DNA of 63,882 nt, taken from Sulfurimonas sp. CG01_land_8_20_14_3_00_36_23. Its GTDB lineage: Bacteria > Campylobacterota > Campylobacteria > Campylobacterales > Sulfurimonadaceae. The stretch is taken from assembly GCA_002781365.1 (NCBI GenBank), contig PETN01000009.1, forward strand, positions 1-63,882, read 5' to 3'. The translations under genes were made by a program, and so were the position numbers. The notes under the pieces are model-generated. The model was not told the DNA's origin. It did no database searches and worked only from the letters and a program-made list of their open reading frames with translations. How positions within the stretch are numbered: position 1 is the first letter of the stretch; each line of letters begins with the position of its first letter. Below, piece after piece: positions 1 through 3,439 of the stretch.

Positions 1-67
1 CTCATATGTAAATCCTTATAAATAATTCACTTGATTATGATATCAAATGAATCTCATTTTTTAAGGT

Positions 68-1273
68 TTACACAGTTAGATTTACACTCTCTCAAAAGTT
101 TGTATCTGTATCATTTGAAGTATCATTATTAGGTAATTCTTCTGCATTTTTCATTGCTCTTTCTTCAATCTCTTTATTAATCATAGCCACAGTCTCAGCG
201 TCTCTAATATCCTTTCAAGCAATAAAATTATTTACTATATTATCAAAATCTGATTTACTTAAATCAGCTGTTCCCGTTTTTACTCATTCTATGACTTTAA
301 CACTTTCATCTTTTCTTAAATCTATAATTTTAGTTTTGTCTTCATCATTTTTATAAACTTCAACTTCTCATTCTATTACAATTATTTCAGTAGCAGTAGA
401 ATCTTTTTTCACTCAAAAGATTGTACCTCTAACCGCTGCCGTACTATCTGTCGTATAAACCTCAAAGTTAGAGCTATCATTTAAATGAGTTGCTTTTGTC
501 CAGATAGTACCTGTAGTTAGAGTTAGTTTTATGAAAGTTGTTAAGTTATTGTCTAGTGGGAAAGAAAGCTTTGTAAGTGTTAGTTCTCATCCATTTTCTA
601 AAACAGAAACTGAACCATCAGAAAAATATATTTCAAGGTCTCAAGAAGTTGCTTTTATGGTGTCATTTTCTCTGTAAACAATTCAGCTAGCTGTAGCTAT
701 TAAAATTAACTCTTCGGGATTATATGGTAGATTAGTTTTTGATTTATCATATACAAAATTACTTCCGTTATATTCTCTTATTAGATTATATGGTCAAGCC
801 TCAGCAGTATAATTTCAACTTACTTTAGCTTGATACTCTCAATCTATCAATTGAACAGAAGCTAACTCAAATTGATTAGCTACTATTTTTTCAGTACCTT
901 TAGTTTTTCAGTAAGAATAATATGAATTTGTTCTTGGATCAAGTGGAAGAACATCTAAATATTTTTTAGGCAAAGTATCTTCTGTAATACTCCCATAAAC
1001 TCAGAATGTTAAAGTGTCGTCGTATGAGTGAGAATAACTTGAGTCTACCTTGAAAAAGTTTGTATTCCCTCACGGCATAGGAAGTGAACTATTGTCTTGT
1101 GCGTAAGACTCTAAAGCGTTGTTTATAGTCTCAATATCTGATACTATTTTTGTGTTGTCTGTTTTGTCTTTGTAGCCTTGATTAGCTGAAAGTCATATAA
1201 CAGCAAGGAGTGTAATAATTGCGATAGCAATTATTATTTCCACTAGTGAAAATGCGGATTTTTTGTTTTGCAT
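68..1273 (-). CDS. Type IV prepilin-like protein with FecR-like domain, read with UGA = glycine
   Basis: The frame runs 402 codons from ATG (1273) to TAA (68) only if TGA is sense; it contains 15 in-frame TGA codons, for example codon 27 at 1195-1193. Read as Gly they give sensible protein. A prepilin N-terminus is present (residues 1-30, KKSAFSLVEIIIAIAI, Glu at +5 of the mature form, Ala in place of the usual Gly before the cleavage site), followed by a pseudopilin-like linker (PLDPRTN). Around residues 250-330 is a FecR-type stretch (AAVRGTIFGV, then IVIEGEVEVY). UGA = Gly is the code of SR1/Absconditabacteria and Gracilibacteria. A standard-code gene caller breaks this gene to pieces. On the same strand, AAGGA and an ATG at position 5 suggest another gene starting at the window edge. 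The pilin role is inferred from the N-terminus; the FecR match is from motif shape. Confidence 0.85.
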
Positions 1274-1430
1274 AAAATGAGGTTTATGTATTAAAAGTTT
1301 AGGAGTGATTTTAGTTTAATGTTTTTTTGAGATTTTGGAAGAGGAAGTTTTATAAAAGTAGGTATTCATAAAATTGTCATTTTTCTAAATTAGTGTTACA
1401 ATAATTTAAATACATTTTAATAAAAAAAAT

Positions 1431-1859
1431 ATGCAATATAAAGAATTGTGAATGTTTCAAAATGATAACATACTTAAAGATAAAATAAAAAGAGATTTCG
1501 AATATATAGAATGATTGATTGTTTGAGTATCAGCTTTTATGGAAGAAGAAAAATACTATGAAAAATGAGAAAAAAAAGCTCTTTATGAGAACTTATCAGA
1601 TGTTAAAATAAATTTAAATAGTGATGAATGACTTAACTTATCTTTAGTTTACAATAGATTAACAAATATTCTAAATATAATAATTCCCTATATTGACACA
1701 ACAAATTATAATGAATGGTTAAATCAATCATGACATTTTATAAAATTACAAAATTATATTGGAGAAATATTAAAATCATCATGAATTAATATTGATGTTT
1801 TAGATACACATATCAACGATACTAAAAATGCGATTAATAAAATTATTTTTTCTAAATAA
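1431..1859 (+). CDS. Hypothetical 142-aa protein, read with UGA = glycine
   Basis: The frame is 143 codons from ATG (1431) to TAA (1857-1859) with seven in-frame TGA codons, all readable as Gly. It is divergent from the prepilin gene, with a 157-bp AT-rich spacer between the starts. The protein is soluble-looking, acidic and Asn/Ile/Lys-rich, with no membrane segment; one Trp codon is TGG (NEWLNQ), so TGA is not simply Trp. I do not recognise a family. Two opposed genes sharing the same recoding make chance open frames very unlikely. Confidence 0.75.
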
Positions 1860-1936
1860 TGTTTAGGAATAAATCAGAATTAAATCTTTGTGTACTGCAA
1901 TAGTAGGATATATACAAAATTCATTTATTATGTATT
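1860..1936. other. Probable join between a recoded (table 25) genome and the Campylobacterota chromosome
   Basis: Left of this stretch both genes need UGA = Gly; right of it every gene reads in the standard code. The stretch is 77 bp, very AT-rich and without a gene. No transposase, integrase, tRNA or flanking direct repeat is visible, so a metagenome assembly chimera is the simplest explanation. The join could also lie slightly further right, because the 178-aa gene that follows cannot be tied firmly to either genome. Confidence 0.7.
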
Positions 1937-2473
1937 TTATTTAATTGCAATACCTTTAAACATAACCTGACCTGAACCAGTATTAAGTTTAATAGCTGAT
2001 AACTGTGTGCTATCAGTTGGAAAATTATTTACTGTAAAATGTGCCGACATTGGTACTTTAGATATAAAATCAGATGTACTACTAGCACGTTTATCTAAGA
2101 TAAAAGCTGATGAAATTTTAAACTTTTGCCCTTTTTCATCATATACATAGCTATCAATAATGCTACTTCCTGAGTCTTTACCCATATTAACAATTCGTAA
2201 CTTACAAGTAACACTAGATGATTCTCTAGAACAGCCTAATAAGTTATATTCATAATTCCCCACCATAATAGTTTTTTCAATAGTTGGTTTTGGAAGTCCA
2301 TCTATTGCATTAACTGTAACAGTCCTAGAAGATTTTAATGTATTAATCTCTTTTTGAAAACACTCTAATACTGTTTTAATGTTCTCTTGATTATCCAAGC
2401 TAGTTGATGGATTGATACAATCAGCATATAAAAATGTAGTGGTAAATAATACAAGTATTGAGAATATTTTCAT
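1937..2473 (-). CDS. Secreted protein of unknown function, 178 aa
   Basis: A signal peptide is clear at residues 1-17 (MKIFSILVLFTTTFLYA, then DC). The mature part holds four Cys (C19, C38, C82, C90 approximately), which could form disulfides in the periplasm, and a beta-rich C-terminal half. Standard code is used throughout with ordinary Gly codons, so it belongs with the right-hand genome rather than the recoded segment. AAAGGTG precedes the ATG, and a promoter-like TTTAAA-N17-TATAAT lies at 2532-2504. I do not recognise the family; it is a lone gene with no functional neighbour. Confidence 0.7.
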   Translation of the reverse strand: MKIFSILVLFTTTFLYADCINPSTSLDNQENIKTVLECFQKEINTLKSSRTVTVNAIDGLPKPTIEKTIMVGNYEYNLLGCSRESSSVTCKLRIVNMGKDSGSSIIDSYVYDEKGQKFKISSAFILDKRASSTSDFISKVPMSAHFTVNNFPTDSTQLSAIKLNTGSGQVMFKGIAIK

Positions 2474-2503: not shown

Positions 2504-2532
2504 TTATAGCTAAATAAAAACGACTTTTTAAA
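2504..2532 (-). promoter_or_regulatory. Promoter of the 178-aa secreted protein gene
   Basis: On the minus strand TTTAAA (2532-2527) and a perfect TATAAT (2509-2504) are 17 bp apart, about 30 bp upstream of the ATG. The consensus match and spacing support it; no transcript data are available. Confidence 0.5.
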
Positions 2533-2587
2533 AGCTGATATAGTTGGTGGTCTTGGATGGAAGTATAATAAAATTATTGAAAATTTA

Positions 2588-2626
2588 AGTAAAACTTCTT
2601 AAAAATACAAGTTTTACTATTTTTTT
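2588..2626. terminator. Hairpin terminator downstream of the ttcA-like gene
   Basis: Inverted repeat AGTAAAACTT (2588-2597) and AAGTTTTACT (2609-2618) with an 11-nt loop is followed on the plus strand by a run of seven T (2620-2626) and on the minus strand by TAAATTTTC. The stem is AT-rich but long. It would end transcripts leaving the minus-strand gene at 2690. Confidence 0.5.
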
Positions 2627-2689: not shown

Positions 2690-3439
2690 TCAGTCCTCTT
2701 TCATAAAAAAAGAATCCACTGAAATGTTCTTAAATGCCGCATTTAGCGAGGTAAACAGGGATGGAAACTCTTTTTCCATCTTCGCTAACATCTCTTTAGT
2801 ACTGGCTCTGGCATGTGGCATCTTAACATCAAATCTCATAGCAGGACACGCTTCATCACCAACCGTTGGCATACTATTCTCAACTGCAGCAGCTGCAAGC
2901 TGTCTCTCTCTCATTTGGATGAGTGGACGGATCACGATCAAACCATTCCCTGCCTTATATTTTGGAGCTAAAGAGCGCATTTGACCATTGTATATAAAAT
3001 TCATAAAGAAGCTCTCTACTGCATCATCTAGATGATGACCAAGAGCCAACTTATTACATCCAAGTTTCTCTGCTAAACCATAAAGTGTTCCTCTTCTCAT
3101 TCTTGAAAAAAAGCTACAAAAAGAGGAGTTCTTTCTTATCTTCTCTTCTGCTAAATCAAAAATTTGAGTGTCATGTATGATATGTGGAATTTCATGCTCT
3201 TTACAATGTTCTATAAGACGATCAAAATTTTCACCCATTCCATAGCCAACCGTCACAGCAATAAATTCAAACTTAAAAGCAGCACGTCGCTGTTGCTCTT
3301 TGAGCGCATGAACCATAGTTAAGGAGTCTTTTCCACCACTTAGTCCAACTAAAATTTTATCGCCCTCTTCTATGAGGTTGAATTCAGCATTTGTTTTACC
3401 AAGTTTTGACATTATCTTTTTTGAAAGTTTAATTTCCAT
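2690..3439 (-). CDS. ttcA: TtcA-like PP-loop tRNA thiolation ATPase, atypical cysteines
   Basis: PP-loop ATP pyrophosphatase: the SGGKDS loop is at residues 34-39, and FCSFFSRMRRGTLY (107-120) and ALGHHLDDA (132-140) are TtcA hallmarks. TtcA makes 2-thiocytidine at tRNA position 32, using a [4Fe-4S] cluster held by Cys from two CxxC motifs. Here each motif keeps only one obvious Cys (C108 in FCSFF, C198 in EACPA), so cluster binding may differ or the protein may act on another substrate. Length (249 aa) is somewhat shorter than the E. coli enzyme. It is followed by a terminator and sits 30 bp downstream of the nucleosidase gene on the same strand. Confidence 0.8.
   Translation of the reverse strand: MEIKLSKKIMSKLGKTNAEFNLIEEGDKILVGLSGGKDSLTMVHALKEQQRRAAFKFEFIAVTVGYGMGENFDRLIEHCKEHEIPHIIHDTQIFDLAEEKIRKNSSFCSFFSRMRRGTLYGLAEKLGCNKLALGHHLDDAVESFFMNFIYNGQMRSLAPKYKAGNGLIVIRPLIQMRERQLAAAAVENSMPTVGDEACPAMRFDVKMPHARASTKEMLAKMEKEFPSLFTSLNAAFKNISVDSFFMKED

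Follow-up and report, generated by a model that had tools for sequence, protein, structure and literature searches.

How did two reading frames that are open only if TGA is read as sense come to stand at one end of a Sulfurimonas contig that otherwise follows the standard code? In the window—the whole 63,882-nucleotide stretch of DNA analyzed here—translation under table 25 reproduces the coordinates and counts given by the first-pass annotation: a minus-strand frame at 68–1273 encodes 401 amino acids with 15 in-frame TGA codons, and a plus-strand frame at 1431–1859 encodes 142 amino acids with seven. Under table 11, by comparison, 1–1936 holds no ORF of at least 60 amino acids. The ordinary glycine codons and TGG that had also been described are present (10 GGN codons in the minus frame and 1 in the plus frame, with one TGG in each). 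TGA accounts for 22 of the 33 glycine codons over both frames, a share matching that of code-25 contigs, and for 7 of the 8 in the plus frame. The remainder of the window is standard code, as annotated, with 57 ORFs of at least 150 codons, 8 of which end in TGA. The features are listed in Table 1.

Table 1. Features at the left end of the window, with the basis for each assignment
Feature	Position	Strand	Basis
Tip of a host IS256-family element (1,348 bp) on the 5' side of its transposase; contig ends inside	1–91	-	Identical contig-end repeats
FecR-domain prepilin gene, Gracilibacteria type, code 25, 15 in-frame TGA; 3' end cut by the IS	92–1273	-	Pfam, homologues, TGA sites, tree
142-aa frame with 7 TGA, open only if TGA is sense; divergent from the prepilin	1431–1859	+	Table 25 frame, masking scan
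Likely right junction, foreign/standard code; AT-rich, noncoding	1857–1936		Repeat search (none found), codon count
Orphan secreted-type protein, 178 aa, standard code (9 GGN, 0 TGA)	1937–2473	-	ORF and codon count
TtcA-like tRNA thiolation protein; conserved host backbone begins here	2690–3439	-	Pfam, comparison with relatives

Could these frames simply be chance openings in AT-rich, noncoding DNA? Frames of at least 100 codons with at least five TGA often arise as wrong frames of real genes, and they number in the hundreds in 1.1 Mb of this genome. Because they turn up so readily on the strand opposite a real gene or next to one, openness by itself is weak evidence, and a chance origin gains some room from this. 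However, once frames covered by ordinary ORFs of at least 80 codons were masked, the TGA-only frames left in 1.10 Mb (a little under half of the 2.43-Mb genome) were exactly two, 68–1273 and 1431–1859. The absence of any further TGA-only ORF in that 1.1 Mb also means that there is no sign of other Gracilibacteria contamination there. For the minus frame, a chance opening is refuted by full-length homology to prepilins, with E values down to 1e-113, and by glycine at the TGA sites; for the pair of frames we give it practically no credence.

What is the minus-frame protein, and where does it come from? The first-pass annotation had called it a prepilin with a FecR-like domain, and Pfam N_methyl and FecR domains were indeed found. 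Gracilibacteria contigs were reached by means of a TGA-specific EF-Tu/IF-2 motif and, from there, 353 genomes of the class. The closest Gracilibacteria proteins are 50–63% identical to the window's protein (61% for the relative with the best E value), and their genes carry in-frame TGA; relatives at E < 1e-50 occur in 26 of the 353 genomes, each with 6 to 26 in-frame TGA codons. Where the window gene has TGA, 176 of 243 aligned cells in the relatives are glycine, encoded by TGA or GGN; overall, glycine makes up about 8%. In a phylogeny the window prepilin falls inside a Gracilibacteria clade (99/99), beside G121–G124 (91/91), on a short terminal branch. The G121 and G123 genes face thrS on Gracilibacteria contigs and are thus chromosomal. 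A search of the genome contigs collection with prepilin peptides gave no match, and plasmid and phage searches with the foreign segment were empty. Together, homologues, glycine sites, and tree support reading the prepilin as Gracilibacteria-type coding DNA in which UGA specifies glycine.

For the plus frame, the earlier assignment to Gracilibacteria-type DNA held less well. The table 25 translation and protein search that the first-pass annotation proposed, which returned Gracilibacteria relatives for the prepilin, gave a single weak match here (27% identity, E of 1e-3) and no convincing homologue; a viral contig search with this frame also found nothing. What speaks indirectly for a shared foreign origin is its unusual openness as an isolated TGA-only frame, the TGA share of its glycine codons, and its position beside the prepilin. 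As in the chromosomes of Gracilibacteria and Absconditabacteria (code 25, UGA as glycine), TGA stands at glycine positions, about two-thirds of glycine codons are TGA, and the FecR-domain prepilin family is present. In contrast to those chromosomes, the segment lies on a standard-code Campylobacterota contig, and its prepilin faces the 142-aa frame, where that of the close relatives G121 and G123 faces thrS.

Might the host itself decode UGA as glycine here, with the help of a suppressor tRNA or of a mobile element that brings its own code? Both frames are intact, as such a reading would have it, but the eight long window ORFs that stop at TGA argue against it, and no tRNA with a UCA anticodon was found in the window or in a partial sample of 45 loci. 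The phage collection, moreover, yielded no match to the prepilin, whose relatives sit beside thrS in Gracilibacteria contigs, and the window gene is truncated by an insertion sequence (IS). We therefore consider decoding by the host highly improbable.

What lies on the left side of the segment? The first-pass annotation had treated the whole of 1–1936 as foreign, which fits 92 to ∼1860; bases 1–91, by contrast, are a host IS tip. Contigs C96 (at both ends), C3, and C52 from this genome terminate in exactly this sequence, over whatever length of it each contig includes. The copies always sit at contig ends, the identity breaks off at base 91 every time, and all three contigs carry ordinary standard-code genes. 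This tip contributes the final seven codons and the stop codon to the minus frame, so the prepilin is truncated; its relatives reach 500–840 amino acids. Nearly all contigs of the window's genome end inside IS tips of this sort, most of them 60–100 bases in, and the end of the window's contig thus resembles those of the host in general.

The element has the Mutator-type transposase, terminal inverted repeats, and 8-bp target site duplications (TSDs) of the IS256 family; the window contig differs in holding the tip only, and the element itself has no unusual features. The Transposase_mut domain (Pfam PF00872) was found on a degenerate element whose tip is nearly the same; a full copy was seen in L224/L229, and the one in G107:C7 combines the transposase gene and both ends with an 8-bp TSD, GAAGTCAA. 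Across host contigs, matching 8-bp TSDs were found for three copies (C96/C30, C96/C62, and C52/C93), and through them the opposite IS end is known in this genome. Family membership is therefore documented by Transposase_mut and by the TSDs of these three copies and G107, with none for the window copy: its TSD partner, ACTTTTGA, is absent from the 13 opposite IS ends, as is a partner for the copy on C3. All 13 opposite ends lead into standard-code DNA. Within the order, 44 of 399 genomes carry the IS.

Does the same IS occur in Gracilibacteria? With scoring limited to two candidates per genome, the tip was recovered at ≥89% identity from only three contigs among the 353 Gracilibacteria-class genomes, G107:C7 (L229) and G040:C48 and C58 (L230 and L231). 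These contigs lack the TGA density of code-25 DNA, and one has GGN glycine throughout its long ORFs. A code-25 version of the IS in these two bins was rejected, as the contigs have no TGA-rich frames; they are probably standard-code host DNA misbinned with Gracilibacteria. Their presence in such bins suggests that IS-bearing bacteria and Gracilibacteria share samples.

Where does the foreign DNA end on the right? The junction most likely lies between the end of the plus frame and the orphan gene that follows (Table 1). The first-pass annotation had proposed comparing k-mers left and right of 1.9 kb; the log-odds do show a shift toward Gracilibacteria composition, one that stays within the range of the most AT-rich host stretches, and they do not place the junction. 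No convincing repeat able to misjoin contigs was found at this junction in the roughly half of the host genome examined. The 178-aa orphan was not recovered from any of 119 further genomes of the genus, nor did plasmid and viral contig searches give a match. On the far side of ttcA, relatives carry different genes, which points to an insertion specific to the window's genome. Between the orphan and ttcA, 88 bases of the window (2515–2602) match G409:C17 at 91% and read as a protein tail (..KADIVGGLGWKYNKIIENLSKTS); they lie near a GCGGACTCAACGCGGACTC repeat.

Is the segment, then, a real integration or an assembly chimera? The first-pass annotation had judged a chimera far more likely. That judgment is not supported by the left edge, where, instead of Gracilibacteria DNA running off the contig, there is a host IS tip shared with standard-code contig ends. 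The foreign piece thus has host DNA on both sides at the level of the assembly, as expected of lateral transfer: the IS tip on the left and standard-code ORFs on the right. In a chimera, DNA of a Gracilibacterium in the sample would have been misjoined to the host contig at ∼1860–1936, and the IS tip would be either a second false join or the Gracilibacterium's own IS. Several observations are in keeping with this and count against integration: a contig-end position is typical of misassembly, undecayed frames are also expected of an artefact, the window IS copy has no TSD partner among the 13 opposite ends, and the IS-bearing standard-code contigs inside Gracilibacteria-class bins make it probable that both groups co-occur in samples. 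However, a chimera requires two errors within 1.8 kb, or one error plus a Gracilibacterium carrying the same IS, which was never seen in a code-25 contig of the 353 genomes; the examined half of the host genome, moreover, yielded neither a repeat matching the right junction nor other Gracilibacteria DNA. One event plus the IS explains the host DNA on both sides, whereas a chimera needs more. On these sequence-based grounds we favor a real, recent, nonfunctional integration of 92 to ∼1860 into a Sulfurimonas-like genome, which we regard as probable, and consider an assembly chimera unlikely.

How could such an integration have come about? A fragment of a Gracilibacteria-class chromosome (92 to ∼1860) would have entered a Sulfurimonas-like Campylobacterota cell, for which close contact between Gracilibacterium and host offers a natural route, and would have been joined to the chromosome close to ttcA, with illegitimate recombination as the probable mechanism; the two are presumably linked physically in the cell. 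A host IS256-family element abuts its left side and cuts the prepilin gene. The DNA would have been dead on arrival: with UGA as a stop, translation of UGA-rich messages should end after 26 codons in the prepilin and after 6 in the second frame. Since neither frame has decayed, the transfer would be recent. Somewhat more cautiously, we think it reasonably likely that a piece of Gracilibacteria chromosome has become fixed in a Sulfurimonas-like genome as passive, dead DNA—a trace of contact identifying the group that serves as host or prey.

What would such a trace mean? Nonfunctional transfers occur between genomes with different codes, as with mitochondrial DNA copies in nuclear genomes. The likeness lies in foreign-code DNA that cannot be properly translated after insertion; the difference is that here donor and recipient would both be bacteria, the donor probably belonging to an epibiont lineage, and that the transfer is read from an assembly. 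We found no report in the literature of Gracilibacteria DNA in Campylobacterota. Patescibacteria have been predicted as donors to DPANN archaea (PMC12455944), and phages shared by Gracilibacteria and standard-code bacteria have been predicted in a separate study (PMC10746230). Most Gracilibacteria have no known host, and the segment, if real, would name a host or prey group for a lineage of this kind. DNA of a foreign code is easily detected in a host chromosome and not mistakable for adaptive gene transfer; thus, scanning for unexplained TGA-only frames could reveal host–epibiont pairs, and when 1.1 Mb of the window's genome was scanned in this way, nothing but this segment came up. If the segment is instead an artefact, it is a warning not to use the first 1.9 kb of a public assembly.

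The host assembly also offers some observations of its own. Its contigs (e.g., at L009, L010, L011, and L131–L210 of G000) fall into about a dozen distinct contig-end families, broken at IS tips. For one element the ends can be paired by their 8-bp TSDs, which would allow contigs to be ordered. On contig C35 of the same genome (5923–7822), the opposite IS end occurs twice internally on the same strand, at a spacing of 1.9 kb, and this may be an old, degenerate copy of the element.
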